This document shows positions 3,723-58,825 of a stretch of DNA of 64,000 bases, piece by piece. The translations under genes were made by a program, and so were the position numbers. Each line of letters starts with the position of its first letter. Positions within the stretch are counted from its first letter, which is position 1. This stretch comes from Straminergon stramineum (taxonomy: Eukaryota > Streptophyta > Bryopsida > Hypnales > Calliergonaceae), in contig OY987273.1 of the NCBI GenBank assembly GCA_963920665.1, forward strand, positions 5,768,501 to 5,832,500, written 5' to 3'. The notes beneath the pieces are model-generated. The model had not been told where the DNA came from and searched no databases. It saw nothing but the letters and a program-made list of their open reading frames with translations.

Positions 3723-3977
3723 AAGGCCATATTCATTATATTGAGACTTTTCGGAGTCTCATTTTTATCCTCTACTTGAAGATAAACCACTTTATCTCTT
3801 TACTAGTATTTTTTTATGAATAGGTAACAACACCAACTTCTAGAATTTCATTATAGGATCACTATTTGAGCATTATTTATTTTTGGTTTCAAGTACTATT
3901 TTTTTAAATGAATTTTTCAATAACTAACATTTTGTCTCAAAATCTACAAAAAGTTTCAATATAATGAATATGGCCTT
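3723..3977. mobile_element. 255-bp MITE with element-family ends
   Basis: The ends are inverted repeats of about 29 bp with one mismatch, beginning AAGGCCATATTC, and are flanked on both sides by AGTT (3719-3722 and 3978-3981), a 4-bp target duplication. There is no coding capacity. The outer sequence closely resembles the ends of element 1 (AAGGCCTTATTCG), element 2 and element 3, so it is probably a non-autonomous derivative of that family. Confidence 0.85.
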
Positions 3978-3981
3978 AGTT

Positions 3982-4378: not shown

Positions 4379-4836
4379 GCAATTCAACTCAACTTGAGCT
4401 GAAGTGCAAATATGTAAGATTGATATCCTTGCTCTCTCGCACATCAGCTCAAGTGGAGCTCAAGTGCTAATATATAATATTCAAACCCTCATTGTCCAGC
4501 ACTTCAACTTGAATGAAGCTAAAATGTTGATATTTACTATATTTAATCTCTCTCTAGCAATTCAGTTCAACTCGAGTTGAAGTGTTGGAAGAAGAGATTC
4601 ATAAAAGTTTTATAGATTTAGAATCTATAGAAATGAACCTCCAACTATAGCACTTGATCTTGACTAAAGTTGAAATGTGGGACAATGAGTAGTAAATTAG
4701 CAATATCATATGCTAGTACTTTAGCTCGACTTGAGCTAAATGGTTAAAGCTAGAACTTCATTTAAAGAAGTATAGTGCTTCTTTATAAATTTAAGAATAA
4801 TAGTCTAGCACTTTAGCTTAGGATTAGATTATGTTT
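4379..4836. repeat. P3 array: tandem 29-nt imperfect palindromes
   Basis: At least six imperfect 29-nt palindromes, roughly GCACTTCAACTCAA plus a centre base plus the complementary arm, start at 4379, 4439, 4499, 4557, 4650 and 4716, with a decayed seventh near 4807. The first four are spaced 58-60 nt, so they began as a tandem repeat of about 60 bp; the spacers have diverged more than the palindromes. The array lies about 200 bp upstream of the transposase-like fragment at 5028, the same relation as the P1 array to the gene at 37425. Confidence 0.75.
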
Positions 4837-16968: not shown

Positions 16969-17019
16969 ATGTGTAATTATCGGTGTTTTGATTTTGTGAA
17001 GCAAAGTGGGTCAAAAGAG
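16969..17019 (+). pseudogene. 5' stub of the interrupted FCP1-like gene (copy III)
   Basis: An open frame from ATG at 16969 reads to the AGAG target duplication (17016-17019), ending QSGSKE. If element 1 (17020-40726) and one AGAG copy are removed, it joins in frame to ESFLYSEMANLKED at 40731. I infer that element 1 landed in the coding sequence of the FCP1-like gene that resumes there. The stub is short, so this is suggestive, not proven. Confidence 0.4.
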
Positions 17020-17046
17020 AAGGCCTTATTCGTTAAATTGAGACAA

Positions 17047-17569
17047 AATGACAATTTTGAGACTTTGAAAAATGGATGCAAAGCTCCAACAAATTAAGAG
17101 TTGTTGAACCCAATGATATGTAGAGTCGGCCATGTAACAACGATAGAAAGCTTTGAACAAGCTGCCCCAATTGACTTGAAACATGAGATTATAATTGCAT
17201 CAATACAAGAGAAGATGTGAGACTTTCTTTCAAATAGAGGACCCGAAGTACTCCGTACAAAGAAAGCGAGTCATTTAAAGTGAGTAAGTTGGAATTACTT
17301 GTGCTGTTTAATACAAAAAGAGTATGTAAATATTCTTTGTAGGGAATGAACTATGAGGGCATAAGATTCAATGGAATCAATATCGCTGTTTCTTGTATAT
17401 GAAGCATTGAACTTCTGAAAGTATTTTTGTATGTCTACTTACTATACTATTAATAGTCAAGGCTACGTCAAAACTAAGTACTTCGAAACAATTACTTGCT
17501 TGATGTACTTGTTGATGGCAAAATCTGTACTTTGTCTATTTCTGTACAATTGCTCCTAGCTGCTTCCAA
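17047..17569. other. Element 1 left subterminal region
   Basis: AT-rich DNA just inside the left TIR with another TTGAGAC motif at about 17057. No gene is visible. Confidence 0.5.
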
Positions 17570-18162
17570 TGCTTTGAGCTTTGCTTGTCCTTTAAAGATA
17601 TCCTCATGTCGAGAATGATAGTGCGGCCCACTTCCCCCCCCCCAAAGACTCGCATAAGCTCAAGCTTTGAGCTCCATTTTCCTTTCACTTTGACCTTCGA
17701 GTGGCTTGGGGGGCCCCTGGACCCGAAAGCGATCTTGACCCTCGAGGAGGCCGCCTCGGCAATGATGCATTAACATTGTCTATGTTCGGAAGTGGAGTCC
17801 CTCTTGTTTTGGAGTCCAGTGAACAGCGATGTTCTCTGAAAATTCGTTGCTTGAAAAGACTCTCGGCAGAAGGGGATCATCTAGCTCTTACAGATTGCGA
17901 GGGATGAGGTTGCTTATCCTCGATCCGAAGAATAGTAACATCAGTACTCGGCTTCCGTACCTCCCCCCCCTTTGTCATCCTCCAACACAACTACCAACTT
18001 CAATCCATCGATGCGGACATTAGGAAATGCAGATGGAGTTGGAACATCATCTTCGAGCGGAGGATGTCCCGGCGCTTCATGCAAGGGTAGTTTTAGTTTG
18101 CAACTTGTTGCCGCATCCGTTCACGGTTTTGGCGAGAAGGAATTCCCATGACCCGAGGATGT
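17570..18162 (-). pseudogene. Gene X of element 1, C-terminal part
   Basis: GC-richer than its surroundings and coding-like on the minus strand: LEDDVPTPSAFPNVRIDGLKL, then an ELKA.AYASLGGGEVGRTI and DMRISLKDKQSS ending. These match in order the gene at 60086-60790 in element 3 (LYDDTHVPMSFPVTEALLL, THDGVPPSRRT, WDRKLIKLQRRQS). The N-terminal part lies at 21532-21700, split off by the family III insertion 18163-21531. Poly-C runs at 17632-17643 and 17965 and a TAG interrupt it. Function unknown; the matched region is Ser/Pro-rich. Confidence 0.45.
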
Positions 18163-19550
18163 TGTCGCAGCACAGGATAAGTAAATTCCCTTTTATGCTC
18201 AAAAAAATCACTCTAGAGCATTACTAAGTGACTCTAAAGATCGAACCCACAAGATTCTGTGAAGTATTTAGCTTTATTATGCTAGTAAGCTCTCCTAACC
18301 TCAAAAACTTCCTTTTCGGTCCTAGATCTTCGACTGGAAAATCACCAACCACTAAGAGGATCAGGACTGGATCACTTCCTATCTGATTCTTTAAACCTCC
18401 GGTTAACTCAATTTTTCCAATTTCTAGGATTTGAACAACTTCGATCTTGGTACTTCTCTGAACCAATCCGCTTTAGATTGTCCTTGTGTCTACTCGATTC
18501 CCTTCCAGTTTAATTTTGCCTCTGTTGGACCATCAGAGGGTTCGCCACTTAGATTTGTGAGTGGTAGGCCCACCACTCCTTCTAAGGATTATAGTGGTTG
18601 AAGGTCCACTATTTTCTCCCTCCCTCTTCTAACTAACTCGGATCCGGTTTGGTCCCTCACAACAATCCCGACAGCAATCCAGATTGTAGGTCACACAGGG
18701 ACCCCCTGTACGATCCGCTCAAACTACAATGACTTTGCTACCAGATCCTACCCATGCAGAACTTGGTGGTTACAAGTGTAGTCGTCCGTTCCAACAGTTA
18801 TCAAAACTTATCCGTTTACCAACAAAGGCGGTGAGACCTCTCAAGAGATCGGATACTCAACCGAATTTCCCACCTGGGAGTTCTAGCACGACTAAGGATA
18901 CCCTCCCTATCTGCCTAGCCTAACAATGGTTTTCTCACCTGGATCTAAAAGCTCTAACTTTGCTGAGGCACTAAAATCCACTCCCAACACTCATAGGAAC
19001 CCGCTCACATACACTAAGGATCGGAATCTTACGCAACAAAGGGAGAAATCTATCTGCCACTCAGTCCTACACCTTTCTAACTCAATGTCATGCAATCTTG
19101 CCACATAGGGGGAGAAATACACAACAACAGGGCGCATTCAAAGGTACAATAGAATTGCAAAAGAAGACTACTAGCATCCCTCGCAGGTGCTAACTTATAT
19201 ACAAGTCAAAAAGGTACAATTTGAGTGGCAAAATCCGCAAAAGTTCCGCGGCAATCTAAGCCAAAATTTTCATTCCTACCTACCCCTACTCCTAACCGGA
19301 TCGGATCCTGATCCGATTCCGTTCCTACTATTTACACGTCACCTACCCGAGATCCAATGGTGGCACTACCTACTCCCGGATCAATGTCCTTGAAAATCTC
19401 GTTGAGGTTCCGGTTCTGCTCCCCCTCCTATGGGTCAGGAACCTGTTCACGTTTGGGGGTTGAATCCAAGTCGATGGCGGTTCCGAGTGTGCAAGCTTGA
19501 GTCGCCTTCCACTCTGATATCTTCGACTTCGGGGTGGTATCCTTCCCCTC

Positions 19551-21014
19551 TTAAGCTACTGCATCCAAGAACGAACCCGGTAGCAAGAGATCCGAGAGTT
19601 GGATCCCTCGGGAGCAAGTAGCTCCCAACACTAACCGACTACTTTCCTCCATACGGTCAGCTGCTGTCTGAGCCTCTCTCATGGCGACTTCCACTTGCTC
19701 GGTGAAGTCACTAAGAATCCGGATCATCCAGGTTCCGGACAACTTCTTCTCCTCATGCATCTTCTCATCGAGTAGCTTTGCCTTCGTGATGACCGATCCA
19801 GTCTCCCCGAACATAGCCTTCACCCGATCCGCTATCCTGTGAGACTCTTCTGCCATCGTGCAAGCAGCTACAGCATTCTCCTTCAGCACGAGGAGCTTAG
19901 CCTTCACACGATCCACCTCCTCTTGAAGCCTACGGATCTCCTCTTCATGTTTCCGAATCTCGATCAGATCAAAGATGCAGCTTGCCACCTTCTCCGGTAG
20001 ATCCAGATCCAGTGGCGCTCCAAGCAACTTCTCGATCGTAACCAAGATTCTTCTCTTCAGCTCCCAATCCGATTTGACATTACATAGAATCTTCTCGAGA
20101 GAAGTGAATGGATCATCGGGATTCGCTTCCTCCGATACGGTCTTCTCAACTTCTGGTCTTTCTTCCAAGGCTGTCGTATCTCGTGTCGGTGGCGTCCCTC
20201 GTTTGTTGGGGGAGGTAGTCTTCTAACGCTTGATCGGCAGCATTGGCGCCTCATCTTCTTCAGACTCCGAATCCTCTCCTGGTTCAGAACCGGATTCGTT
20301 CTCCTCATCCGAGCCCAATTCCCCATATCTTAGGACTACTTCCTGATCTTTCTACACCCTATCCTCTGTGTCATTTAGGAGTTGCTGGGACTTATAGAGG
20401 TGCATTAAGTATGGACATACTAGAGTTGCCCTACTCTTTCCAACTCTATTGACTAACTAGATCACCAAATCGGAAATGATCCAGGCCTAGTCGACTTTCC
20501 GGTCTCCTCTTAGGGCACCGAAAATAGTATTCGCAAGGGTAATGGTTACCCTTGTTGGCTTTTCCGGATGTAGGATCGGAACAAGGAATAGTAAGAGTCG
20601 TTGGTTCCGCTCATCAATACAGTCCTCTATGGCGTATCTGTCCTTGGGGTTTATTGCACCATCGAATTTGCCTCGGACGAAATCGTCCTTCCGGTTGGCC
20701 ATCCCGAATCCTCCTAGTCGGAAACCATAAACCGATCTCCAGACATCTTCCGTCCAGAGATGTGGAATCGCTCTCAAAGTATTATCCCACTCATTGGACA
20801 CTTTGCCCAAGAGTTCCCTCACTAGGACTTCCTCTTTGAAGCCCCAAGGCTTTGTTGCAAACCCTATACATCCCATGGAGTTTAAATCATCCATGAGTTC
20901 TGCTCTAGTATCCTCTGAAAGAGGGACAACCGGAACTATTTTCTAGAGTTTGACCTCTATTGTTGATGATGAGCTAGCCTGGCCTCTAGTTCTCTTGAGC
21001 TGCGGCATGGACAT
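19551..21014 (-). pseudogene. Family III protein, copy A
   Basis: One 488-codon frame from ATG (21014) to TAA (19551) contains five internal TAGs but no TGA, TAA or frameshift. Order: N-terminal folded domain with LWTEDVWRSVYGF, IEDCIDERNQ and EKPTRVTITLANTIFGALRG; a segment ending CPYLMHLYKSQQLL; an acidic linker (EPGEDSEEDEAP) with a basic patch; and a long C-terminal coiled coil (EEEIRRLQEEVDRVKAKLL). Copies B and C show the same order. The N-terminal domain faintly recalls plant putative-transposon/mobile-domain proteins; I cannot name it. It is the only gene of its element, so it is probably needed for mobility. Confidence 0.6.
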
Positions 21015-21260
21015 GGATGCGAGCTTGGAGGATCCCTTGTCCGATCCTACCTCACGTTTTCTCTACTAGCCGCATGTCCCGTTCCTTTCTTTCACTCTCC
21101 GATCTCAACCGAAAACCAAACTAAGATACTCTCACTCCAACTCTCGCAGAAAACACCTAAACACAAAGATTGACACGGAAAACAAAAACTGACAAACGCG
21201 AGGAGCTTGAGAGCGCTGAAAACAACAAATGTAAAAGAGGTGCGACTGGCCAAGCCAGCC

Positions 21261-21268
21261 CTTATATA
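21261..21268 (-). promoter_or_regulatory. Candidate TATA box of family III copy A
   Basis: On the minus strand the sequence reads GTATATAAGGGCTGGC, a canonical TATATAA about 250 bp upstream of the ATG at 21014. The corresponding place in copy B (57675) reads GGGTACTTAACC, a decayed form. Confidence 0.45.
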
Positions 21269-21531
21269 CTTGCTGGACCCCCTACCACCTCAGCGTGACC
21301 TAATCTGAATTCAGTTCCTTCTTGATATCTAGTTCATACCTTAACCGGTCAGAGATCCGCTCCTATCCGTCTTTCTTTGAAAACCGGATTGAGTAGATCT
21401 TTCCACTATCTCATTCTCCTCCTCTATTTCCACTCCTTATGGTTCCTTTACCAAATCCGGATACCCATATCCAGCTTTCTGGTTACTATTACTAGGTAAA
21501 ACCAAAAAAACTAGAGTTTCACGTTGCCACA

Positions 21532-21700
21532 AATGCTCGCTTCAACGGCGACGGAGAGCATATGGGAGTCCTCATAGGTCTGCGACTCAAGGGGCTATCC
21601 ACGACCCCGTCTTCAATGTCCCACTTGGAATAGTCTATAGCCACGGATGCAGCGTCCGCAGTGAACCACAGCAGGTATGGTTTGGAATACGGAGCAGTGT
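21532..21700 (-). pseudogene. Gene X of element 1, N-terminal part
   Basis: Minus-strand coding-like sequence VVDSPLSRRPMRTPICSPSP preceded by ADAASVAIDYSKWD. It matches element 3 at 60420-60520 (ATANSTMDFSL ... MVDSPPNGAPRLSKSCSPSP). Separated from the rest of gene X by family III copy A. Function unknown. Confidence 0.45.
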
Positions 21701-22030
21701 CACAACTCCCCCCCTCGGATTCCGACTAGTTGGAAAGTGACCTTTCTGATCCAGAGAGGAGACTCCTAGTCAACCATTGCCTTTTCAGTGGTTCAACAAA
21801 GCGAATGCCTCCAACCTACAGTACGTATATGATCAACAAGCCCACCCACATTACCTCTGTCCAACAAATGCAAAAGCATCTTCAATTGAGACTGGGAGAC
21901 ATGTATAGTAAACCCCCGAGTACATGGCAAAGATTCAAGGGAAATGCGAACTCAATATATTATTTACAAAAGATCATAGCGTACAAATCGAGGACTATAG
22001 ACAAAATGTTATCTCACATCTAGAAAGAAT

Positions 22031-22891
22031 CTACTTTATAGCGTACTTCCTACATCGGCCTCGCTCTATGATTAAGCCTATGCTAGGAAGTTCGTATCTA
22101 GAACCCATGACCTTCGAGGACTCTCTCATCCCGTCTATGAGCGACTCCAACTTGTAGTCCTCGACTCCCAATGGATTCAAACCAATGCGGTTTTCCTCGA
22201 CGTATGTCTGCATTTGGCCCGGTTGATAGTTCGAATCTAGACATTTGAGCCATGGCAGAAGTTCCCCCATGAGGACGTTGTCTCTGCGATTATGGTGCCT
22301 CCAAGTGTCTAGGAATATGGCATTCCCATTCTCATTGCAAACGCTCTTGTTCGAAGAGTCGTCAATGAGAAGCGTATTATTTGAGGTGAAGGACATGCTC
22401 CCGCTCGGATTGCAAAACAAGGTCTTGGAGAGCACTTTCATACAATGCACTTTCTCACCGAGATGAAAGAACTTTCCCAGAGAGTACTCTATCTTTTTTC
22501 ATTGCTCCTGACTCAGTATATCATAGGGTACTCTACAACCGTTGAACAAGTGTCTAGCGATGGGTTCTGCATTACGCTTCAACATTGTGGTCCACACTAA
22601 GATCCTATCCGCGATTGCTGAAACCTATCGGAGGACTTCACCTAGATTTTGCCGAGCGAATACCACCTTGGGTCCGATGATCGTGGGATTTCTGTGGCAG
22701 AGAACATTGTCTTCGAGCTTGTACGGTTTGAATTTCTCCCTATAGGACTTCATCGCCATATGGCAAAGTATGCCGTTCAAGTCGAAGACAATGTTCAGAC
22801 ACTTCCTCCGCGGTAGAGGAAGTACGGGAGGCACATTCTTTGGCACAATTTCTCTCCCGCCCTCCAATACTACCTGATGAAAATAGAACAA
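22031..22891 (-). pseudogene. FCP1/SCP-like HAD phosphatase, copy I (element 1)
   Basis: FCP1-type HAD enzymes remove phosphate from serine, classically on the RNA polymerase II C-terminal domain. Visible here: motif I LNIVFDLNGILC (about 22770), RILVWTTM as motif II (about 22610), NNTLLIDDSSNKSVCNENGN as motif III (about 22360), and a C-terminal tail to 22031. Motif I has Asn where the family has the second Asp (DxN, not DxD), as in copy II. An acceptor TTTTCATCAG lies at 22877. Two in-frame stops (after GEVLR and SQEQ) suggest decay. It lies downstream of the methyltransferase-like gene on the same strand. Confidence 0.7.
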
Positions 22892-23365
22892 GAAAGAAAT
22901 GGAGTTACCTATTTAAATGCAGAAACGGGAGATCCAGAAAGCAGATAGAAGCATTCAGTTCCCCTAATCGACTGCGGTCTCCCATTAGAAAGTGCTTTCA
23001 TTGGCAGCGGACGATGCATGCTTTTATTTTTTTGCAGCTAAGCAACAGAAACACTGAAAGCCAAAGACAATTAGACTGATGCACGAATCCATGGAAATCG
23101 GGTATAATTTATTTACAAAGTCTTCAAATTACAGCCGCAAAATTATATTACGTCTCTAGTCGACTAAAAACTACTCTGAGCACTATGCTATACTATTGTA
23201 CACGGATGGTAGCCATAGATAGATTCGTCATCAACACCAAGCAATCAAGTAGCAGCGATGACATCCTGTCAAGAAGCATGGATACAAATGAGATTCAGTA
23301 ACTAGTAGAGGACTTCTTAGTTGCTATCACCGAACACAATCATGAATGACTCCAAGGTTCTGGAA

Positions 23366-26300
23366 TCAATCAAAATCATAAGGGTTAGAAGGTTGTACTT
23401 GAGCGGTTCCTTCGGGATCCTCCGGTGCCACTTTTGTTGTTGAAGGTGGTCCTTTCTCGCTCTCCTCTGGATCGTTGTCGAGAAGGTCTTCATCACCAAC
23501 TTCATAGTCCACCCTTTCTTCTTCCACAGAAAAGGGAGATTGCACCTCCACACGGACTTCACGTGATTCCTCACAAACTACTGTATTATGAGGCTCAATC
23601 GCAAAAGTTCGTGCTGCCTCCTCGACAACATTATTGTCACATCGACGATAATGTTCTTCTCCTTCATTGGTGTCATCTTGTTGAGCAACGTCAGGAACAA
23701 CCTCAAGAATCTAGACTTCAAAGGCCCCTTCATCTGGAGATGGAATCCTGGGCATCTAGGATGCTGGAGTTGATATGACCAGGTCCTCATGTCCTAGTGA
23801 GACCGCTTCATCCTTATCCTCGACTCGAGGATAGGACAGCCCACTAACCAAGTGGGCCATTTCTTGCATGGCTAGAGCGCTACCCGACGGCACCTGAGGT
23901 TGTGGAGTCGGAGCAACAGAGAATGTAATCGGGCAGCTCTGCAATTGGCTCTTCAGGGACTGCAATGCACTCAAGAGCACTACGAATTGGCTTGGCAACT
24001 CGTCATATTTTGTGTCCGACTTTTCTTGGAGTTCAGTAATTTTCTCATTGGCAGCCTTGTTGCCCGCTAGTAGCTCAACAACCAGCCTTTCTTTTTCTTC
24101 TTGCTCCTCCTGCCTGGCTATCCTCTTCTCCTTGGCTTCCTGGTCTTTCTTCCACCAGTCCTTCTTGACCTTCACCACCACGCCTGAGGGTGCGATGACA
24201 AGTTTTAGCTCAACTTGATTGGGAACACCATCTGTGTCATTGTCATCGTCTGATGAGTGCGGATGATCAATATCATCATCATCACTGATGATGATGGGAT
24301 TATCCAATCCCGTTGAGGGATTACTTTCTTGAGCTGCACAATTTCCTTGGGATCCAAACTCGTTGGTAATAACAACGTCCTCAAAGTCTCTCCCTCGTTC
24401 CTCTCTAGTTTGCTCCTCCAGATGTCTCTCAAACTCGGTGTTGGTCTCTACATCCTTGTCATCATGTTGAGTTTGCAATACGACCGGAACAGCAGGAGCA
24501 TCCATCCATGTATGGAGCTGGAATGTGTTCGTCCCAAATTGATTGATTCCTTCAATGCCAGGATCAGTACTTACATGTGGCCCGACAACTTCCCTTTGGC
24601 GGTTCCCCACGACATTACTTTCTAGCGGTGACTCCAATGTCATGGGTGGCGATGGAGGTGAGTTGGAGTGAACAACCATAGGTCCACGACTTGTGGGACG
24701 ATTGTATAGTAGCGAATAAGGTGAATTCAAAATCAAGAAGTCATTCTTATCCATCTTATTCGCTAGGAGAGTGATTTTTGAGTATGGCTTTGCATCTTCT
24801 CTGTCACTAAAGCCATAGAAGTATGCACCGAACATCTACAGATCACACACAAACATTTCATATTTTGTATTTCTAAATCAATGTTGAATGTATATCCAAG
24901 GTACATGATATTATTGTTGACCCGAGGATAACAATGGACTGCACGTACTTCAAAGATAAAGTAAGAAAAATTGATGAACTATACAAGATACAAGAATATC
25001 ATTTCTGGGAGAGAAGATACACTAACCTTTGCAGCTAGCATGAACTTAGGTCATGCGTAGATGCCAAGAACATTTTCATTTGGCTTTGTGAAGGCTTGGA
25101 GTATGTCCAAATAAAACTCCATCCACAATTCAGTATGATGTATCCTCTACTTTGCTTCCATATTCTTGGATGGATCGCTATAGTATACATACCCAGAAGG
25201 TGTGTCATATTTTCATTTGAGGCTCATGCGGGCGGCGATGGCAAAGTCATTATCCTTCTTGAAAAGGAATAGGAGTGGCACGTCCGGAGCTTTTCCTCTA
25301 TTTGTCACATTATTTAACATCTCTGCTCTACTGGGGACGTAGGTGGATATGACGGAGTCATACCCAGTAAGCCTTAGAGCTGCAAAAGAAGTTACAGCCT
25401 TCGATATTAGTTGGATTTGATTGTGGCACCACCCTAATATCTAGAACTGCCAAGTTAACTTCTCGTTGATGATAGCTGTAATTTGTGCTGGTCACGAGCG
25501 CCTTGGCAATGAAGTCAATTCCTCGTACTTGTACTCCTCCGGCGGGTTTAGAAAGTTGGTACTTTAGCTTCATAAACCTCCTAAACATGTATAGGACCTC
25601 TGGAAATTGTTTGTCCAGATCCTTTGCTCGCTTCCGCCACGCATTGTTCCTGAGCCGTTTCTTGAAATACTCAGCACTAGGATGCATGAGAAGGAAATCC
25701 CATGTCACGGAAGTAAACTAGTGCCTCGCCTTCCATGCTCTCCAGGTTGTATCAATGACATCGCCGCCATTGTTGATGAACTTCAGAGAGGGTTTGAAGT
25801 CCATCAAATCTTGGAGAACAACTTTCTTGCGCTTCCTCCTCTCTACCCAATCACCGTGCGCAATGTTGTCGGGAACTAGTATTTTTGTTCTCGCAACAGA
25901 GACTTTCGGATATATAGATTTATGCCCCGGAGTTTCACCTAGTAGGTGATGTGCAAAAACTCCAAAGTCAATGTCCATGAACCATCTGCAATGCTTGAAA
26001 AACTCTCTTTTCAAGGACATGGCTTTGATCTTGAAACCTTTAATTTCCTTGAACAATTTCAAGGAAACTGGCTCCATCAGCTCGCCTTCGGAATGCTTTG
26101 TCAAAAATCGATTCCAGTATGCCCAGAGATCATTGAGCAGGGTGATGATCTGAATTTCATTTTTCAGATCCGTAGTCCCTTTGATAGAAGCACCATCCTT
26201 TTCAAGATTAATATTTTGGAATCTCTCAACAACTACATCCGTGAAGCTCTGCATTTCCCAATACAATAATTCAATTACAATTCGACATGAAAACAATTGA

Positions 26301-27923
26301 ATTTGTTCTTGTACTATCGTCGGGTCGACAATAAAACTATGTTAATAAAAACATAGATAGTCCATATATAAAGTAATTCACTAAATAGTAGTCAAACGAA
26401 GGGTTATTCATATTGGATATGATCAATTTGCATTTACATTCTCACATGACATGAAGAAGTTATCCTCGACTCGATGATAATGAGGAAGACCAATTGCAGA
26501 CCTTATAGTTCATCAAGCTGAAGACGGCTTTGTTGTTTCGAGTTAAATCCTCTGAGCGAATGTTTGTTGGACGCTTACAAGCGAGCCAGATGTTTTGGCA
26601 GCTAATGATTTGGTTAACCCACGTTGGTTGAGCATGATCCAAATGATTAGTGCAGTTGTAGAATTTTGAGATGTTTCGTAATTTGTTTGGATCAAGGGTC
26701 CAAACAATGAAAGCATCCCAAGTCTGAAGCTCTACTCGGCGGGATTCTCCACAACCTCCTTTCTGAAGCTCTTTCGAAGCCGTGATGCTGTGTTGACCGT
26801 TGATAATCATGAATCGTCCATTCATGATTTCTTCCTACTTCTCTAGCTTTCTTTTCAAAAGTTGATTATGAGAATCAACGGGGGTAAGGCAAACCTTCTG
26901 CCTCAGCTTCATGTTAATCAGTTGAATGAGTTCATTCTTCACAACAACAACGATATCCTTTTGCATTGTTCGAATGACATATTGATCACTGGCCAAGATG
27001 CACTGTTTGATGTCCACGGCACCTATTTCCTGGCCGAGTAAAAAACAGGCCTTGTGGTCAGCCCAAAAGTTTCTTTGAATTAAAGCAAACTTCTCATAGT
27101 TTGGTTGTAGAGGATCGGAGGATGTTGGACCTATTGATACAGTCGTGAGCATTGATCCTGAACTTCTAGCACTTGCAACTCCTCTGGGAAGACTTCTCTT
27201 TTTCTTCCTTTTAAAGAGAGGTGCTTCCGTTGAGATGCTGTCTCTCTTTCTGGTCGTCGATTTTGTTTGACCTGGTCTTGTTGCTTTGTTGGCTAAACCA
27301 CCGGCAACAGACCCATCCTGAAGACGACTCTTGGATTCCCCTCTTTGACCTTGTAAGGGGTTTCTACCGATTGATGGTGCAGGCTTGACATTTGCCAAGG
27401 CATATCGATCAAGAGTTTGGAAAATACGACGCAATATAGTCGCATTGGACTTTGCTGTGCCATTTTTCCAAGGAATGTAGCCAGATCTCTCAAATTCCTT
27501 GTTGAGGGACTCCATCTACGACCCCTCCAAGAATGTCATCAGGTTCTCGAGATCAAACTTTCTATAATAAGAATTTACATTGATTACAATGGAGTGACAG
27601 TGGTCTTTTTGGTTTCCATTCTCATCAACTTCATAGAGCACAATGACAACATAATTGCTCTGGTGATCCTCAATCACTATCACTTTCTCTTTCATATTCC
27701 AAAGAAGGTAGCTTGTTTTTCCCTAAATTCGGTATCTGAGATAGACATAATTTTTCCAGCGGTTCACACCGAAGGTCCACGTGCTAATATGATCTTTGAA
27801 CTCCCATAGCATTCCGTAGCTATCTACCATTTCATCGATGAAGGGCTCTTCGTTCAAGGGGTTTACGAAGGGCTAAAGATAATGCACTGTTACGAAATAA
27901 TCGTAGAGATCTTGCTTCTCCAT
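23366..27923 (-). pseudogene. ParB-like plus DNA methyltransferase-like cargo gene (element 1)
   Basis: Long minus-strand gene from ATG 27923 to TGA 23366. Exon 1 (27923-26502): N-terminal domain, then basic patch FKRKKKRSLPRG, then a ParB/DGQHR-like motif MIINGQHSITASKEL (around 26790) followed by WDAFIVWTLDPNKLRNISKF. Intron 26249-26501. Next exons include STYVPSRAEM, PLLFLFKKDNDFAIAARMSL, and HTELWMEFYLDILQAF with NENVLGIYA.PKFMLAAK, which aligns with the C-terminal motif I region of DNA N4/N6-methylases. Intron 24836-25026 has clean GT-AG ends. The last exon has MDKNDFLIL, a SUMO-interaction-like PIIISDDDD, and a coiled coil. About eight TAG and two TGA interrupt it. Methylation activity is unproven. 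Confidence 0.6.
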
Positions 27924-28639
27924 CTTCAAATCTTGCCAAGTGATTTGTGCGAATCTATTAGAAATTGATCTATCGTTGATCCGATGATAAGTTTATTTGG
28001 ATTGCTGGAGGAGAAAATTTATTGATCATATAATTATGTACCGTTTTTTAAACATTTTATATATCTTATTAACTCGATGAGAGTTGCAGATAGGTGAAGA
28101 TACATAGATTTCATTGAACATTAACACTCATTTCTTTCTATCTTAACGATTTTTTCCTCTGACGTCGGTTTTCGAGCATGAAATTAGTCATATTTCATAT
28201 CATGGACATCCGAATGCTTCTTTTTTATTATTAATTTCTTCATGTTCTCTCTTCTTATTGGTGGAGGAATCTTTAAATCCTTCTGAAGGTATCGTCATGT
28301 TGACGATACGGGTAGAGACTGTTATAGAGACTGATATTTTCTTAAATATTTTATATGTCATTCCGTAAATTTGTTATCTGAGATTTTATCGTTGACTCAA
28401 TGATAAGGTGGCTGACTTGGGAAATGGTGCTTTTTCTATTAATTAAAGCATTTTTGCTATTCCTTGGTGGGAATGTGGGAATTAGAATTTGGAAGTTATC
28501 AAGCTTTTCTTTAGATTATCATCGATGACTATATCCTGGAGTCGATGATATGTTTCTTCTATAATTAAAACCCTAAACATGGATAGTCTGCATAATAATC
28601 TTTTCACTAGGTTTGTAATGTACCCTCGACTCGACGATA
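23815..28639. repeat. P1 palindromes in and upstream of the methyltransferase-like gene
   Basis: Nine copies of a 19-nt imperfect palindrome, consensus TATCSTCGANTCGASGATA, start at 23815, 24912, 26315, 26461, 27971, 28290, 28387, 28532 and 28621. One lies inside the last exon, three lie in two introns, and five lie upstream of the ATG. Symmetry is around a single central base. Flanking sequences are unrelated, so these are not simply fragments of a longer repeat. Confidence 0.85.
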
Positions 28640-29762
28640 CGTATCTTTGAATAAGCTAAACCCTACACTTGGAGAGATTGAAAACAAAAACTGCGTACTA
28701 AGACTGAACTGAGATTCTAAAACCCTAAATCATAGACTAATCTGTATAAAATAGAATACCTGAAACCTGACTTTGCTACAGACTTCCTGAATGCTCTTGG
28801 AGATTGAAATTGGACTTCTTCTTGATTGGAGTACTGACCTGCAAGCATTGAAAAGGAATCTCAGAAATTTCAAAAAACTCTAAAATTTCGAAAAACTCAA
28901 AACTTTGTGGTAGAAGTTGATGATTACTAAGAACAACAGAACTACAAATTCCAAACCCAATAGTCGAAACACAATTCTTATAGAAACCCAAAAATCAAAA
29001 CCCAATTCTTAAACAACAACTCTACTATGTGAATGCGCCACCACGACAGAATCAGAGAAATGAGAAAAAACTTTCGGAAAACATTCATTGTACAACAATC
29101 AAGCAAAAACAATTGTCAAGTAAACTAATTCTTAGAAGGAAACTAGCAATGTAGCAAATACTAGGAATACTACCAAGCAATGCAACAAATACTAGCAAGA
29201 ACACTAAGAAATAGTAAGAAATCCAGCAAAAAAAAGCTCAAAAATTTCTGAGAATTGTACCGTAATTATGAGCTCCATGAAGTGGCGCGTAGAGTTGAAA
29301 CTCCACACTTGAATCAAAAACTTGAACTGCAATTCTAACCACACTCCACCGCTATCAAAGAAACTGGTAGCACGTTGAACAAAAAATCGAGCAAGCCTCG
29401 GGAACGTCCGCAACCAAATTGCTAGAAAGTGAGGAACTCCACGTTCGCATACACAAGCTCCAAAAACTACTCAATGCTAGCGGAAAGTGATACAAGAACA
29501 AGAATCGAAAATTCAAACCCCACACGAAAACGAGAACCTGAACTTCTGAAAGCAAATAGTGTCGTCCACCGCGCGTAGGGAGAGAGAAGACCTCCCTAAG
29601 CTAAACCGAGCCGCCATTCCAGGTTTGGACTCCACCGAACCAACCGTGCTGGTTCCAAACCTATGGTGCGGTCAACAGGTTTGTTAATTCTCCCGCACCG
29701 GAGCTAACGCCGAACCTAGACGTTCGGAACTGAATGTGAAGTGCGGTAATTTTAGAATTTCT
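28640..29762. other. Upstream region of the methyltransferase-like gene
   Basis: No clear gene. A GC-richer block at 29570-29740 contains nested inverted repeats: AGGTTTGGA (29621) pairs with TCCAAACCT (29654), and GAACCA (29637) with TGGTTC (29650). It could be a promoter or 5' leader of the minus-strand gene. Confidence 0.35.
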
Positions 29763-30343
29763 TTAACCCCTAAATGCCTAAGGCTTGTTTTGAGTTTTAG
29801 GGTATTTGCTCTCAGTTTATCAAAATGCCAGCATTTTGATAAGTTGTATTAGTTTTTTTGAACTATAACTATACAAATTCGAAGTAGAAATGTTATAGAT
29901 CACATAGGGAAAAAAATCACTTATGGAGTGAAAGATTATAAGTCAAATCTAAAAAGTTTGACAGGTGACCAAAAAAATTTGAGGTTAAAAGGGCCTAACA
30001 TGCATAATCCCAATTAATTTATGGCTTCTCAAAATCTACTGTACAATTCTTTTAAATGAATTTTGAATGTCATTATTTCTCAAAGATCTAGTGTATTTGA
30101 GGCTCATTTCCAAGAGCCCTCAACACTACAGAAAGTCAAGATTGCAATGGGTACCCTTGTAGAAAATCTTGGATATAAAAATCAATATCATTCATTTTCA
30201 AAATCAGATTTGTGATGCTAAAACTAGACTTCAAAGAGAACTTCCCCAAAATACAAGCTTCTCAAAATAGCAAATTGTTAGGGATCTCTTTAACTCCAAT
30301 GTTTTGTAAACACACTCTAGTGCCTGGGGCATTTAGGGGTTAA
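29763..30343. mobile_element. 581-bp MITE, TTAACCCC ends
   Basis: Terminal inverted repeats TTAACCCCTAAATGCC at 29763-29778 and the complement at 30328-30343, with similarity continuing as AGGC. No coding capacity. A second element with nearly the same length and ends lies at 34243-34825. Confidence 0.65.
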
Positions 30344-33300: not shown

Positions 33301-34242
33301 ATTGATTAAGTTCTCTTTAGTTTTGTAAAGCAACTACATATAGCGCTCCACCATAAATAAAAATGTTTCATGTATTTATAGAACGGCACTAAGTTTTTAA
33401 ATTGTCACACCATGCAATTTCAATTATGGCATCATGGTGCCTCTAGAACATCATTGATTTCAATCACATCGACTCTTATTATACATAAAGGCAATTAGGC
33501 ATTAATTATATCAATCAATAATATTCATACCAATGCATGAACATCTATATGACTAACTTCATTGAAGTGTAATGTAAATTAATTCATTTTTTAGAAGTCT
33601 AAAGTTTGAAAAAAGTATAAGTACTTGCATTCCATGAAATTATTTTCTTTGCAATGAAGAATATTTTGTAGAGTTCAAATTTTCAAGGTTTATGATTCTT
33701 TTATTATTTTTAGTAATCAAAATATGAGTACAAAGGAGCATGATTTCATCTCATCATACAAGTAGAAATTGTTTAGTGTACACCAGAATAATTCTTAATG
33801 TCTACACAATCTATTTTGAAAAGTTAAATCATTATAACAAACAATGATTCGAATACTACTAGAATTTCAAATGCATATTACATTGCCATTAGGGAATGAC
33901 ATATGCAAATCACTTGACAAATACATATCATTAAATCCTAAACCCTACAAGTATACTATAAATGAATACTACAAATTGAGTTTACATTTCAATGAATAAG
34001 AATTATATAAGTACAGAAAAACATAGAATTGTAGTACAATTGAAAGATTGAATTCATATCGCATATTCCATATTGAATATATGAAGCAATATTCATATTC
34101 AAAGTAAGAGATGAATTACTATAGCATACAATAATTGTATATGGATTGCCATATTTCATGTTCACATGAAACTGCTCACAAATGACGGTAAATGAATTAT
34201 GGAAAACATTGTAGTAAAAAATGTCCCTAAAATGCTAAGCTT
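30344..34242. other. AT-rich arm of element 1, no gene
   Basis: Long AT-rich noncoding stretch with only short chance open frames. The part 33370-33590 is similar to 1545-1760 in element 2, showing that the arm is a shared component of the element family and not random flanking DNA. Confidence 0.6.
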
Positions 34243-34825
34243 TTCACCCCTAAAGTCCCAAGGCCATTTTTCTTTCAAAAACCACTAAAAACTGCTACTT
34301 CTATTGCATTCATGTAAGGAATCAAAAAAAATACTTTTTTCAGAATCTAATCATAGCATCTTCTACCAAACATTTCTTGAATCATGTAGTGAAAATTTCA
34401 TGAAATTTGACCAAACGCATTGAAAGATATTAGCATTCACAGTGAAAGAATTTGTGGTTTTGAATAAGACGGTCCAATTGCTTGCTAAATAAGAAACTCC
34501 ATATTGTTCATATCAGTAATCCAAATGGGATGAGTCAAAGCTTCCCAATTAGTCAAAAATATAATCTACAAGAATAAAATAATAAAAAAAAAATTTCAAT
34601 TTTTTATAAATTTTGTTTCCTACTTGTTCTCCCCATTTTCAGATTATTGTGGCATATCTTTTGCTCCCGACCATTGATTGAAATACAAATTATATTCCCC
34701 CAAAGCTAATAAGTTTTAAAATCTTATGAGAAAGTTTCAGAAAAAATCACTAACAATTCACCTCATAGGAACCTACCCGAAATCCATGTTGTCCCTTGTA
34801 AGCACATTGGGACTTTAGGGGTTAA
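34243..34825. mobile_element. 583-bp MITE, second copy type
   Basis: Starts TTCACCCCTAAAGTCCCAA and ends with the complement of TTAACCCCTAAAGTCCCAA. Same length class and terminal pattern as 29763-30343. No coding capacity. Confidence 0.6.
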
Positions 34826-34929
34826 AGAGTACTTCTCTACAATCAAGCGATGAACTTCACATAAATTGCATCCCCTAAGAAACTTAGGAGATTCCAAATT
34901 TTTCCCCTACAAATCTGGAATTGTTCACA

Positions 34930-34975
34930 ATCCTAAACCCTAAACCCTAACCCTAAACCCTAAGGCGTGAACCCT
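34930..34975. repeat. Interstitial telomere-type tract
   Basis: AACCCTAAACCCTAACCCTA-type repeats in the same orientation as the tracts at 2725-3027, closing the AT-rich arm of element 1. Confidence 0.85.
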
Positions 34976-35154
34976 ACAATGCACATAATTAGGATCCCAA
35001 ACCGTCAATGGAAGGATTTTTTAAGAAAACCAGACATTGAACAAAGTATAAGCAAAGAAGCAATCATTAGGAATCCCCTAGTAATGAAAGTCACATGAAC
35101 AAAAGTTAAGACAATGACATGAATAGTAGATACACTATAAATGAACGAATTGTT

Positions 35155-35410
35155 TTGGCTGGTATTAGTAAAGCCTTTTTTTGGTTGGTATTAGCAAAGA
35201 CTTTTTTTAGTTGATATTAGGAAAGATTGTTTTTGGTTGGTATTAGCAAAGACTTTTTTTGGTTGATATTAGCAAAGACTTTTTTTGGATGGTATTAGCA
35301 AAGACTTTTTTTGGTTGGTATTAGCGAAGACTGTTTTTGGTTGGTATTAGTAAAGCCTTTTTCGGCAGGTCTTAGTGAAGCCTTTCTGGTCTGGTATTAG
35401 AGAAACCCTT
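35155..35410. repeat. Minisatellite, ~25-bp unit, about 10 copies
   Basis: Tandem units of TTTTTGGTTGGTATTAGCAA followed by AGAC, with increasing divergence to the right. No coding meaning seen. Confidence 0.9.
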
Positions 35411-36053
35411 TGGGGGGTGCTTTTGTTCTTCAGCCGCATCTTTATGCCACAAAGCTAACATAAAGCGGCACATAAAGAGGCATTTAAGTGCTGCCATAGA
35501 AAGTGGACCATGAACGTTGTCAAATGCCATGTATTTCCAAAGAATTTGAATTCCCACGCCAATTCTTCCCCGCCCCTTGATTGGCGGAAGCTCAAGCTCT
35601 CTCCCTTGCAACTTTCACGTTGCAACTTTGTTTTGGCTGCACAGCTTCGCCATTTGATTGTTTTCATTTTTTGTTGCTCATCTCTGACCTACAGGACGCT
35701 TTAGCATTTTGTTTTCCGCATTCCCAATCCACCTTTGTTTCCAATAGGCTTATTCAGATAGTGGGGACTTTAAGAAGATGAGTGTGGACATTGACTGTAG
35801 TTGCTAGTAAGTAGTATTGTGCTTTGACTTCTGATTTGTACAATACGCACTACTTCCTGTTATTGTTGTACCTGACATTCCATTGATTTTCGATTAGTAG
35901 TTTCATTAGCAAAACCATGACACATAGAAATTCGATTGCTATTGTGTCCGATGAGAGTGTTGGTGTTGTGCATCATCGAGATGGTGAGGAATATGTCTCC
36001 CGATATTTTCGCCAAAAATTACAGAGGATCCTATATTATATTAATATAGAGTA
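35411..36053 (+). other. Possible leader/first exon region
   Basis: Mostly noncoding. A 58-codon frame at 35917-36093 (MTHRNSIAIVSDESVGVVHH ...) has a more protein-like start than its surroundings and then runs into AT-rich, palindrome-containing DNA. It might be a first exon of the downstream transposase-like gene or of a degraded gene. I cannot identify it. Confidence 0.25.
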
Positions 36054-37193
36054 TATCCTCGAGTCAACAATATCAAGAGAACTCAATATATAATTGAGAA
36101 TAGTGGAGTCCAAGAGAAGATAGAACGGTCTGAATTCCTCAGACTCATCCATCATATCCTCGAGTCAACGATATCTATTTAATTTAGTAATATGTGGGTC
36201 TTATTGTCGACACGAGGATAGGACTTAGTTTTATATTCCTACGAATGATATCGATTTTATATTATAAAGGATGATATCCATCTTAATGTATAATGTTGCA
36301 AGGTTTATATTTTAAGAAGTTTTATCGTCGACTCCACGATATTTAAATCTCGTAATTTTGGTACCTAGTTTAATAATCGTAAAATATTTTAGAAAAGTAT
36401 TTGTCTAATGGTCGTATCGTCAACTCGAGGATAATTCACATTTTCAAAAATAACTTCTATTATCGATAAGAATTTATTGGACTTCAAGTTAGATTATAAC
36501 TAAGGAAGGTTAATATGTTTGTATTCTTAGGAGGATATCGTTGACTCAATGGTACTCATTTTTACTTCATGCATAATCCTTTCATTTTCATTTGTTTTAA
36601 AAATTGAGTTTATAAATGATAATATACATCCGTACATTATTCGACTACGTTTTGTTGGTGTTCTTTGGAATATCTTTAACACTTTATCTTAGATTTGATG
36701 ATAGCTTTTATGTCTGTTTAGAGATATTGTTATCCTCGATTCGATGATATTTATTTTATTTAGGAATACATTAGTCTTATTATGTATTTTCCTTGGAATG
36801 TGAGATTTATATATTCACAATTCATATCTTCTATATATCGTAATTGACAATAAGACCTTCATATGATAATGTTGGAAGGCTTACATTTTTGGATTCACAG
36901 ATGATTATCGTCGAGTCGACGATACGCATTTCTAAATTCCACAGTCACATTGTAGATCATATATAACTAAGATTTTGATAATTAATGAAGAGCCATACTC
37001 TATGTCACTTAGGAGGAGTGAAAATGTCCCTTACATTATTGGACCAATGATTTTCTGTATTATGGCTTGAAGTGTTTCTGAATTTATTACTTCATATGAA
37101 TAATACTTTTAGAAATTATTCACGAGGAAACCTTTTGTAGTTACAAATTTTGAGTTAAAGACAATTCTTTACTCTATCCTCGATTTGAAGATG
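36054..37193. repeat. P1 palindrome array upstream of the transposase-like gene
   Basis: Ten copies of the 19-nt P1 palindrome start at 36054, 36155, 36202, 36323, 36415, 36536, 36685, 36731, 36906 and 37175. The copy at 36906 (TATCGTCGAGTCGACGATA) is a perfect palindrome apart from its single central base. Spacing is irregular (46-269 nt). The array lies 230-1370 bp upstream of the gene at 37425. Confidence 0.9.
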
Positions 37194-37424
37194 GACATAT
37201 GTATTTTCTGATTATTGTGTTAGCCAATTTGATTTGTGTTATCTACAATTCCAGTTGATTATGAGTTCACATCGGTTATAGGATTAGAATTCTCTTTGTA
37301 ATATATTCAAAATAGATTGTGTATAACGTATATTTCATATAGTCTCTTGTTTGAAATTGAGTATGATACATTTAGACGATCATGAGTTGTTATCGTATCT
37401 GAGATAATTGTTCTCATTCACTAA

Positions 37425-40295
37425 TTGGTTGTAGCCCACAAAATGGATATTCACGGGCCTGAAGATTTTGCAAACCCAGTGCCTACGTTGCACCCTGATG
37501 TCTGTACATGTGACGAGATTCCTCGTGCAAAATGGAACTTCAAACCAGTCACTCTCCGTAATGAAGCAGGGGATGATGTCGCAAATGTAATCTTACAAAG
37601 TGTCCATCTAGATGTTGTAGTAGACAGCGATGGGAAGACTCTTGGTGATGATCGAGTTTCCTTTCAAATTGCACAGTCCTTGTGCAAGGCAAAAGTCCCA
37701 ACTGGGTGGATGTGGTCAATTCACTCTTGACACATCAAGGGAGTTTTTCTCTTTGGTGTCATTTTGTATGACCATGACGAGACGCATATTTACAACACGG
37801 CCATGAATGCTACTAATGTAAGAGTTCGTAAAGGGGTTCGATCCTATGAAAGCTTTCGAGAGAGAATGGAGCTTAATTATCCCCCAAAAGAGATCCTCCT
37901 GGTTCCTCAAGCAATCACTGAAGTCTCCACCAAAACTTGTTGTCCAAACAATTGTTTGCAACCTTTTCTGCGTGGGCAAATTCAAGCCATTCATTCTCAA
38001 CTCCATGTTAACAATGGGGTATATGCTCGGAAGAAGTATCTTCTTGAGGTGCATAGGCAGGTCCACAAAGATCTTGCTGGTAAGGAGCGGATTACCTTGA
38101 AAGGAAGGGAAGTGTGTCCCATTGCATGGTGGACCATTCATGGGGTTTTAAAAGCTACCTTTTATAGGTACAGAGAAATGGCCAAGGATGGGAAGCAAGT
38201 AGCGGCGCATGGGAATTTGGGGTCCAAAAAACCAAGGAAACATATTGTGCAAGCTATTGCAACACTTCGAACATTAGTGGTTCCTGAAGCTGACAAAATG
38301 CCACACAAAATGAGGACACTGGAATTAGGGGAGAAAGTCCCTACAATGGTTTTGCCATCTACATTTCGTTGGAGTGATCAATTACCAAAAATCAATGAGG
38401 CCAATGCAACTTTAAATTTGCAACCAATTTCTTCAAGTGGCTTGAGCAACATTCGACGTGCTTCTTTCCTAGAATTTGCTCCAAAAGCATGTGGAGACAG
38501 TTTCGCTCGATGTGACTTGTGTGATAAATACAAGCAATTGAGGAGCGCATGCACTCCCCTTTCGTACGCGCAAGAGAGGTGGACTGTTGCTTTGAATACC
38601 CACCTTGTGGGCCAAAGGGCCCATAGAGAACTGTACTTTGCAAATTGACATATTTCTGAAACATATCCTGAGAAGATGCTAACCATTATCCATGATAAAA
38701 TGGATTACTCCAAGACCGCTTCTCCACACTTCTCTCACAAGACCAAAGCAATGGATTCCTACATGAAAATGCTCGTTGTAGTTACTGGTATGATTGCTCA
38801 TGGGCATGGGGATGTTAGATATGCACACTACGGTTTAGACATTTTTCCAACAAACTCAAATCATACCATTGGGTTCCTTGCAAAGTTGTTGCGTGATGTT
38901 GAAGAACCACCAAAGAATTCATCGCGCAAGTTATTCTCTAAAAAGGAGACGCAATCCACATTAACTAAGGCGATTCTAGAAGAGGCAGATATTTGGTTGG
39001 ACTCTCTCCTTCCTCCTCCGGAAGAATCAATTCCAACTCAACCTTTACCACCAATATTGACTTTGTAGTTGGATAATGCATCAAGAGACAATAAGAATAG
39101 ATGGGTTTTTGCTTTTTGTTCCCTACTTATATACAAAGGGATTTTCCGCGAAGTGTACATCAATTTCCTCAGTGTTGGGCACACTCATGAAGACATTGAC
39201 ACTTTTTTTGGTTGGTGGAGCACTAAATTGAAGACAAACAACTATCCAACACTTCCGAAACTCATGAAATCCTTCATGGATTGCGAAACACACCCCGTCA
39301 TTCCTCATCTCATCGAGGAAGTTCCTGATTTCAAGCGATATGTAGATGGGTATTTGGGCACAGGAGGAGATTTTTTGGAAGGTCATTCTAGGTCCTAGTA
39401 GTTCAAGTTTTACATGGATTCCAGTGGATGGCCTTTGATGGAGTATAAAAATCTGTATACAGACAAGAAATGGTTGCCAGAGGATGGCAAAGGAATTTGC
39501 TTGTGGTCTGAGACTGAAGACGGACGTCCAATACTTCCAAGCGGTGATCCACCACCTCTAGTTCTTGAGAAGATGCGTTCTCTTGATGAGATCAAGAGAG
39601 GTTTGAACGGTTTCATTGCACACTGGAGTGGAATGGCAGACGATGACCGCTCTGGAGAATTCAAGAGGAAGAATGGCCCTATAAAAGAGTATTGGAAAGG
39701 TGTTTGAGCAACTCTTGATGCACCTCTAGAGCCGCGTGAGACATTACTACATGGATTCTAGCCGGCTTTGAGGATCATCCATGATGAAGCAGATCGTAGG
39801 GAGACGGATGGTACACTACCTAAAGGGGATGCAGAGGATGCACCCTTTGTTGGATGAAGGTGTGATGGTCCTCGTGCTTCTTTCTGTGTTAATCGCGATA
39901 CGTTTGCAGGTTATTTTGTCGTGGTGCAGCCTGCTAATGGTGACTCCAAGCCATTATGGCTTGCTAGAGCCATTACAAATCCGAATCCGGATCCAGGGCA
40001 TATGAATATGATCCAAATCCAATATTGGACGCCAGCTTCAGATCAACACATTAACATGGAAACATATGATGGATGGGACACAAAAAAAGGGAATGTGTGG
40101 CGTGAAGATTGAGCAATAACCCCAACATGGTCGAGCACAGACTGTATCATGACCGCTTGGAAGCCACGTATACGAGAGGGGACTTTAGATCCAAGGGTGG
40201 CAATTCCAAAGCCTCAAATTGACATCATCAAAGCATTAGTGGAAGCCTTCATGGCTAATTTGCAGAAATATATTTTGTCGATTTTATTAGGGTAG
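37425..40295 (+). pseudogene. Transposase-like gene of element 1 (DN..NKN/GHTHEDID family)
   Basis: Candidate transposase. N-terminal domain VTLRNEAGDDVANVILQSVH; then CCPNNCLQPF, HRQVHKDLAGKERI, a Cys cluster CDLCDKYKQLR (about 38505-38540), HDKMDYSKTASPH, HGHGDVRYAHYGLDIFP, and LDNASRDNKNR (39070) with VGHTHEDIDTFFGWWS (39174). The Asp in DN and the later Asp/Glu are placed as in RNase H-fold (DDE/D) enzymes. I associate the family with DUF7869-type proteins from memory. Internal stops: TGA at two probable arginine codons, TAG where copy 2 has Gln, and a TAG TAG pair where copy 2 has QQ. Ends at TAG 40293-40295, near the right TIR. Confidence 0.7.
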
Positions 40296-40699
40296 TTTGA
40301 TTGTGTTACAATTGTTGATTTCTATTGATATTATATTTTATCTTCTTATTTTCTCGAATGTTCTGCATTAAGTGTATTCATTTGAATTTTTTGTAATAAA
40401 GATGTTTTAGATGTTAAAGTTTGGTATCAACAACCTAAAGATTAGTCCTTTCGTAGATGCACCTTTCAATTTCAAGAAATGTCTCAATTGATGACATCTT
40501 GGATGATTTAAAGTGTATATTTTTCATGAAGTAAAAATGTTCAAAAGATGAATGCAGCTTCTTCCTACTATTTATAGCAATAATGAAATTAATTAAAAAA
40601 TTACTTGGACATTTTTAAGTCTCAATTTATTGAATTATCTCAATTTAATGAACTCTTTTGTTTTCTAAATATAGAAATGAATTAAAATGAGACCACAGC
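40296..40699. promoter_or_regulatory. Right subterminal repeats of element 1
   Basis: Noncoding DNA between the transposase-like gene and the right TIR. The motif TCTCAATTTAWTGAA occurs near 40620 and 40637 and again within the TIR (TCTCAATTTAACGAA). Such repeated subterminal motifs are typical transposase-binding sites; that role is inferred. Confidence 0.5.
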
Positions 40700-40730
40700 T
40701 TGTCTCAATTTAACGAATAAGGCCTTAGAG

Positions 40731-48096: not shown

Positions 48097-48121
48097 GTCT
48101 CAAAATAATGAATATAATGTT
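48097..48121. mobile_element. Right terminal repeat of element 2
   Basis: Read on the minus strand, this 25-mer starts AACATTATATTCATTATTTT and matches 20 of 25 positions of the MITE end at 3723. It lies 825 bp after the transposase-like gene, comparable to the 431 bp in element 1. The left end and target duplication cannot be checked because they lie before the window. Confidence 0.6.
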
Positions 48122-57556: not shown

Positions 57557-57832
57557 CGTAAACCAGAACTAAGTGAACTACTAAAACGATTACTAATTCA
57601 CCACTCTTTCACTCAACTATACGAGCACAAAATTATTGCGAAAGAAAGAGGTAGGAGAAATGAGAGTGGCGGGGGTTAAGTACCCATCATCCTACCAATC
57701 GTTCCAGAAGTGGACCATTTATCCGTAACAGTTCCCTAGATTCCTAGACCCGAACTCTAGGCTATAGGTTGTCACTATCCGGGTTTCTGGAATCTGGTTC
57801 CATCTTGGATCCTGTTATGGAACACCTAAATC

Positions 57833-58800: not shown

Positions 58801-58825
58801 GCCGTCATTGACTGTGTCCCCTGTA

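Follow-up and report, generated by a model that had tools for sequence, protein, structure and literature searches.

The closest described counterparts of the element reported here belong to the Sola superfamily, whose members generate 4-bp target-site duplications, have terminal inverted repeats (TIRs) of 11-1124 bp, can exceed 15 kb, are present in the moss Physcomitrella, and in plants mostly measure 2-9 kb (available text of PMC10741241 and PMC9033089). A giant Sola-1 element, the 21.5-kb Sola1-1_Ec32 of Ectocarpus, carries a gene for a ParB-like and DNA methylase (MTase) protein on the strand opposite the transposase. In giant Ectocarpus families, according to this source, transposase genes are frequently predicted to be pseudogenised, and most of these families have nested insertions (PMC12477816, as far as its accessible passages go). 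We analysed a window of 64,000 nucleotides from the moss Straminergon stramineum (assembly GCA_963920665.1, contig OY987273.1, positions 5,768,501 to 5,832,500 of the forward strand; all positions below count from the first letter of this window). The ends, target-site duplication, gene order, second gene block, predicted protein folds, and palindromes with their recurrence in relatives lead us to conclude that a giant cut-and-paste transposon quite probably inserted here as a single unit; its most likely type is Sola, and it has a block of accessory genes and putative ParB-bound palindromes.

The element measures 23.7 kb, and its ends, which begin with AAGGCC, are inverted repeats that are complementary at 27/27 bases. 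The flanks read GTCAAAAGAG followed by the left TIR, and the right TIR followed by AGAGGAGTCA, and the target-site duplication is thus exactly 4 bp, AGAG. By a mononucleotide estimate, 3.6e-7 perfect 27-bp inverted pairs are expected by chance in the window, and 1.7e-9 with a 4-bp duplication. The TIR pair ranked first in a scan of the window for inverted pairs with an exact 9-base outer seed, a distance of 80-30000 bases and directly duplicated flanks of 3 bp or more; second came a repeat outside the element, at 57497-59230, and third a 255-bp miniature inverted-repeat transposable element (MITE) with a similar type of TIR. This TIR type has a 4-bp duplication at two insertions in the window, AGAG at the element and AGTT at the MITE, and past its first 27 bp the MITE resembles the element ends no better than shuffles do. 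The perfect TIRs and the 4-bp duplication had been recognised by the first-pass annotation, and both hold; its wording that AGAG follows both TIRs was loose, as the motif is on the outer side of both ends, before the left TIR and after the right one. Its view that a single giant DNA transposon with cargo genes is present, and not two unrelated ends, is supported by our analysis.

The transposase-like gene that had been noted near the right end is indeed there and is of the DUF7869 type: no frame break was seen in its frame, and the piece at 39069-39395 matches PF25273 (DUF7869) with an E-value of 6e-29. One piece of this transposase was matched by 64 protein clusters (E<=0.01), and PF25273 was detected in 13 of these 64. 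Sola transposases are of the DDD type; the relatives have conserved acidic positions in the motifs DKMDHSK, LDNASGDNKN and HTHEDID, the roles of which are putative. One relative, P0043, looks like a chimera that begins much like the ParB protein P0079 and is transposase in the remainder. Outside the element lies copy C, another DUF7869 transposase gene, which is diverged and broken. It was detected, as was a second cargo block (copy B), by tblastn of the reading frames of the window against the window itself. The TIR-like right end downstream of copy C scores 20/25, the best scores per shuffle in 60 Markov shuffles being 17 to 19; a left end for copy B or copy C was looked for in the window, and none was found.

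The assignment to the Sola type is the most likely one by duplication length, size and the parallel in Ectocarpus. Both duplications, AGAG and AGTT, have the length that is typical of Sola, and the TIRs of 27 bp lie within its range. The earlier statement that the element fits no plant superfamily is therefore not supported, given that Sola combines 4-bp duplications with sizes that can exceed 15 kb and occurs in Physcomitrella. Nor can we follow the suggestion of an undescribed class, because of the resemblance to Sola1-1_Ec32, which is of similar size (23.7 vs 21.5 kb) and likewise has its ParB-MTase gene opposite the transposase; this comparison is by the published description only, in the accessible part of PMC12477816. 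Differences from Sola1-1_Ec32, within the same limits, are the additional gene X, the FCP1/NIF-like gene, the palindrome set and a methylase without a recognisable motif IV. The word stems palindrom and phosphatase have 0 occurrences in the main text of PMC12477816, which was also the only pertinent paper among those listed for ParB with transposons, methylases, parS or palindromes, as judged by titles and abstract openings. The duplication length, TIR length and size range agree with plant Sola elements, whereas an accessory block as found here is not mentioned for these in the available text of PMC10741241 and PMC9033089. Giant KDZ and EnSpm transposons, as far as the consulted text of PMC12477816 describes them, are comparable in their giant size, accessory genes and proposed mobilisation in trans, and differ from the DUF7869 transposase, the AAGGCC ends and the 4-bp duplication seen here.

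Other superfamilies were ruled out. CACTA/EnSpm elements have CACTA-type ends and a 3-bp duplication, which is incompatible with AAGGCC ends and a 4-bp duplication. The duplication of exactly 4 bp also excludes hAT (8 bp) and PIF/Harbinger (3 bp). The same holds for Tc1/mariner with its TA duplication and for MULE elements with 7-12 bp (text seen of PMC10741241), and Kolobok and piggyBac, for which the accessible text of PMC9587614 gives a TTAA duplication, are excluded by AGAG and AGTT.

The first-pass annotation had counted at least three other genes, and three reading-frame blocks are indeed present, all on the - strand. The largest is the ParB-MTase gene, which starts with an ATG at 27923 and consists of exon 1 to 26502, an intron at 26501-26249, exon 2 to 25027, an intron at 25026-24836, and a C-terminal part with an approximate end. 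According to structural models, its product would comprise a ParB-like domain and an N4/N6 DNA methylase domain. The structural rows hardly reach the part of the MTase model that precedes residue 242, and nothing is therefore claimed for this part. Active N4/N6 DNA methylases have a motif IV of the form [DNS]PP[YFW]. D276 is invariant in the MTase alignment, and by eye PP[YFW] follows it in 0/24 rows, so that catalysis by the MTase domain is doubtful. PADLOC gave 0 matches in 5 proteins, searches of PHROGs and NCBIfam gave weak matches only, the sole ParB-named PHROG match (P0077, E 0.019) falls outside the fold-matched region, and PDB sequence searches returned nothing convincing. No viral link was found in viral_contigs, where 0/128 pattern matches encode a relative of the MTase alignment and neither the TIR nor the 19-bp palindrome has an exact match.

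The other two cargo genes were compared with their diverged counterparts in copy B, which has the same block order and orientation as the block of the element. Gene X, which belongs to no known family, is 44% identical between 20490-20942 and 57077-57478 (E 1.6e-35), and its part at 19554-20222 matches 56267-56467 with an E-value of 2e-4 only. The FCP1/NIF-like gene matches its counterpart at 61172-61813 in tblastn (E 3e-22). It is this counterpart that matches PF03031 (E 8.9e-11) and on which the NIF assignment depends, as the element's own pieces gave no match to PF03031 in Pfam scans. NIF/FCP1 phosphatases have the catalytic motif DxDx(T/V), and in its place both block copies read DLNGIL. 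For the third gene, copy B includes the end of the MTase exon at 63756-63998 (E 3e-9). Just beyond the right end of the element, a + strand frame at 41694-42481 is weakly NIF/HAD-like, with a PF03031 match at 41694-42020 that is below the cut-off (E 0.015). Within copy B, we also observed an imperfect palindrome at 57186-59541 with 370-nt arms that are 80% complementary and 1.6 kb apart; part of the block B gene X is present in both arms, and a 113-bp tandem array (58098-58728) lies between them.

The element also contains a set of short palindromes. With up to 3 mismatches, the 19-bp motif TATCGTCGASTCGACGATA has 14 sites in the window, all between 23815 and 36924, compared to 0.00 in shuffles, and under an even spread over the window the probability that all 14 fall within the element is 9e-7. 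These strict sites are distributed over intron 1 of the ParB-MTase gene (two), the region upstream of its ATG (four), the region upstream of the transposase (seven), and the C-terminal part of the ParB-MTase gene (one, at 23815). As the site flanks vary, the palindromes are apparently not copies of a longer repeat. A weight-matrix scan was noisy, with a best score of 22.0 in 20 Markov shuffles and a mean of maxima of 9.2, and the weaker sites at 24912, 27971 and 36536 are thus not significant alone; the best weight-matrix site outside the element scores 16.4 at 3766, inside the MITE. The homologous intron of copy B has TTAGGTCGACTCGACCTAA at 63660 and a weaker palindrome at 63590, which have the core in common with the sites of the element and differ in the outer arms (TATCGTC in the element, TTAGGTC in copy B). 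A palindrome of the copy-B type with 1 mismatch, TTAGCTCGACTTGAGCTAA, was seen at 4721-4739, outside any recognised copy.

Translations of the motif recur among protein relatives. We considered tails of at least 12 residues past an exon donor, and the centre of the palindrome was freed after these tails had been seen. With fixed arms and a free centre, the translated motif is found in 30/51 tails after the ParB exon donor and in 14/22 tails after the MTase exon donor, and an exact motif translation is found in 0/69 ParB and 1/45 MTase exon bodies. In the earlier version with a fixed centre, the tails number 13/51 and 11/22 and the exon bodies 0 and 1, and the copy-B type occurs in 0 tails. Most of the contrast is lost when one mismatch is allowed (tails 37/51 and 17/22 vs bodies 37/69 and 18/45). 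The first regular-expression form of the motif matched 14/110 ParB, 11/78 MTase and 10/64 transposase relatives, with 0.6, 0.0 and 0.05 in shuffled-protein controls; the 78 MTase relatives are those of 81 hits that remain after removal of three already among the ParB relatives. Linkage between the genes was addressed by contig co-occurrence, contigs of equal length being counted as the same, irrespective of contig names: 48 contigs of at least 50 kb have a transposase match, the ParB exon lies on 10 and the MTase exon on 9 of them, 19 in all, and the ParB and MTase exons of one gene, from 65 and 44 contigs, have 7 contigs in common.

In bacterial ParB-parS partition systems, a protein with a ParB-type N-domain fold is encoded on DNA that also has short palindromic sites. 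Both features have a parallel here, the fold being a predicted one, and we propose that the palindromes are putative parS-like binding sites of the element's own ParB-like protein. Unlike the bacterial systems, we are dealing with a eukaryotic transposon, with a 19-bp site that has an odd centre, and with candidate sites only. No ParA gene turned up in the Pfam scans, which is to be seen in light of the fact that no search was aimed at ParA. The presence of such a palindrome set within an element of this kind is apparently new.

How could the components work together? The DUF7869 transposase would cut at the 27-bp TIRs and leave the 4-bp duplication on insertion. Since stops interrupt both the transposase gene and the ParB-MTase gene, the element, if it is still mobile, would depend on transposase supplied by an intact relative. 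The opposite-strand block would provide gene X, the FCP1/NIF-like protein and the ParB-MTase protein, whose ParB-like part may bind the palindromes upstream of both main genes and within the ParB-MTase gene itself. The element may be marked or regulated in this way, and the methylase-fold domain may serve as a DNA-binding or marking module.

Several alternatives have to be weighed against a single, originally giant insertion. The two TIRs might stem from different insertions of one MITE-rich family, with ordinary genome in the intervening 23.7 kb, and the other copies of the TIR type in the window, namely the MITE at 3723-3977 and the TIR-like end at 48121, do point to such a family. We nevertheless regard this as very improbable: the two ends match each other at 27/27 positions whereas each MITE arm shows three to four differences from them in 25 positions, the chance of AGAG on the outer side of both ends is about 1 in 256, a transposase gene lies just inside the right end, and the copy C transposase precedes a related TIR-like end. 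An original element of smaller size, in which parts such as, above all, the spacer at 28.6-36 kb were later nested insertions or captured sequence, is a more serious option, yet an unlikely one. The GC content of the spacer, about 0.28-0.37, and its lack of a frame of 150 codons would be in line with this, as would the nested insertions that the available part of PMC12477816 reports for most giant Ectocarpus families. A 33-bp inverted pair (28620-28652 and 36893-36925, 82% complementary) could be taken for the ends of such an insertion, but palindromes 28621 and 36906, which it overlaps, account for it. Apart from one shifted version of the element's own ends, the sole internal pair of TIRs with a duplication that was listed is one of 95 bp (22702-22796), which has arms of 15 bp and a duplication of 3 bp, and the conserved block order in copy B favours the block as an original part. 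It is similarly unlikely that the element falls outside Sola, whether in another known superfamily or in one that has no name yet. The literature searched makes no mention of DUF7869 and Sola was compared by description only, but a 4-bp duplication that is not TTAA, the range of sizes and the similarity to the Ectocarpus element all agree with Sola.

For the palindromes, the chief rival to ParB binding is that they are intron features, either RNA hairpins that aid splicing or ends of intron-making elements. In the relatives, the palindromes directly follow the splice donors of two introns, and two sites of the element lie in intron 1. On the other hand, 12/14 strict sites are outside the two mapped introns, and 11 of them are in the two clusters upstream of the two main genes, although these clusters could in turn be unmapped introns of untranslated leaders. 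The intron palindromes of copy B, which keep the core but not the outer arms, also speak against intron features, and on balance we consider this explanation rather improbable, if less so than the alternatives above. Our own interpretation of a giant Sola-type transposon with ParB-bound palindromes has weaknesses as well. The absence of DUF7869 from the literature searched applies here too; sequence searches with Pfam detected neither a ParB nor a methylase domain in the ParB-MTase protein, the Foldseek E-values of the ParB model are 1.6e-3 or weaker, its mean pLDDT (predicted local distance difference test) is 63.8 and its pTM (predicted template modelling score) 0.40, and PP[YFW] is missing at the expected motif IV. 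The contig linkage is suggestive only, as abundant elements on large contigs may coincide by chance. The palindrome counts are post hoc, the motif having first been noticed in the element and in the tails of relatives; many ParB tails represent one closely related group, and relatives from the same genome are not independent. Furthermore, the 10/64 transposase relatives carry their motif translations in apparent coding sequence (eight SSSRG, two SSSRR), and the palindromes of relatives were seen only in introns, where only exon ends were visible, and thus an RNA or splicing role would fit them as well.

Table 1. Positions of the element, its genes and palindromes, and related sequences in the window
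Feature	Positions	Strand	Basis or remark
Left target-site duplication AGAG	17016-17019		Flank sequence
Left TIR, 27 bp	17020-17046	+	Inverted-repeat comparison
Cargo gene X, no known family	19551-20942	-	Diverged copy at 56267-57478
Cargo gene, FCP1/NIF-like	22031-22912	-	Assigned via diverged copy 61172-61813
Cargo gene, ParB-like domain and DNA-methylase-fold domain	23369-27923	-	Predicted fold; in-frame stops, one frame break near 25.4 kb
19-bp palindrome, 9/9 arm pairs	23815-23833		In C-terminal part of ParB-MTase gene
Weak palindrome site in intron 2, 5/9 arm pairs	24912-24930		Alone not significant
Two palindrome sites in intron 1	26315-26479		26315-26333, 26461-26479
Palindrome cluster 1, upstream of ParB-MTase ATG	27971-28639		27971 (weak), 28290, 28387, 28532, 28621
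AT-rich spacer without a frame of 150 codons	28640-36053		GC and reading-frame scans
Palindrome cluster 2, upstream of transposase	36054-36924		36054, 36155, 36202, 36323, 36415, 36536 (weak), 36731, 36906
Transposase gene, DUF7869 type	37425-40292	+	One frame with nine in-frame stops; end about 40292
Right TIR, 27 bp	40700-40726	-	Inverted-repeat comparison
Right target-site duplication AGAG	40727-40730		Flank sequence
MITE of 255 bp, similar TIR type	3723-3977		4-bp duplication AGTT at 3719-3722 and 3978-3981
Copy C, second DUF7869 transposase gene, diverged and broken, outside element	44841-47296	+	tblastn of window against itself; Pfam
TIR-like right end downstream of copy C	48097-48121	-	20/25 positions of TIR consensus
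Copy B, second cargo block (gene X, FCP1/NIF-like, MTase part)	56267-64000	-	tblastn; extends beyond window

A tandem array with a 26-bp unit (8.1 copies, 35153-35362) lies in the spacer that separates palindrome clusters 1 and 2. Short runs of the plant-telomere-like repeat AAACCCT were noticed at 2726-3022 and, inside the element, at 34929-34975. A - strand frame at 8801-9586 presumably resembles a CACTA TNP2 transposase, as judged by eye. No Rfam family matched the window at gathering thresholds.

Through the element, a domain of unknown function, DUF7869, is linked to a transposase for which the ends and the duplication length are known. According to the text at hand of PMC12477816, the authors of the Ectocarpus study considered that ParB-like methylase proteins may bind and modify their own transposon, and the palindromes are concrete candidate DNA targets with which this proposal becomes directly testable. 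This bears on the question of why some eukaryotic transposons have bacterial-type ParB and methylase domains. It is possible, although we advance it only tentatively, that this giant transposon family has a means of self-recognition, in which a protein with ParB-like and methylase-fold parts recognises palindromes that are specific to the element and lie upstream of its genes and in its introns; the sites would have changed in step with the protein as subfamilies separated. If this is true, self-recognition would work like a partition or marking system that is carried by a transposon.

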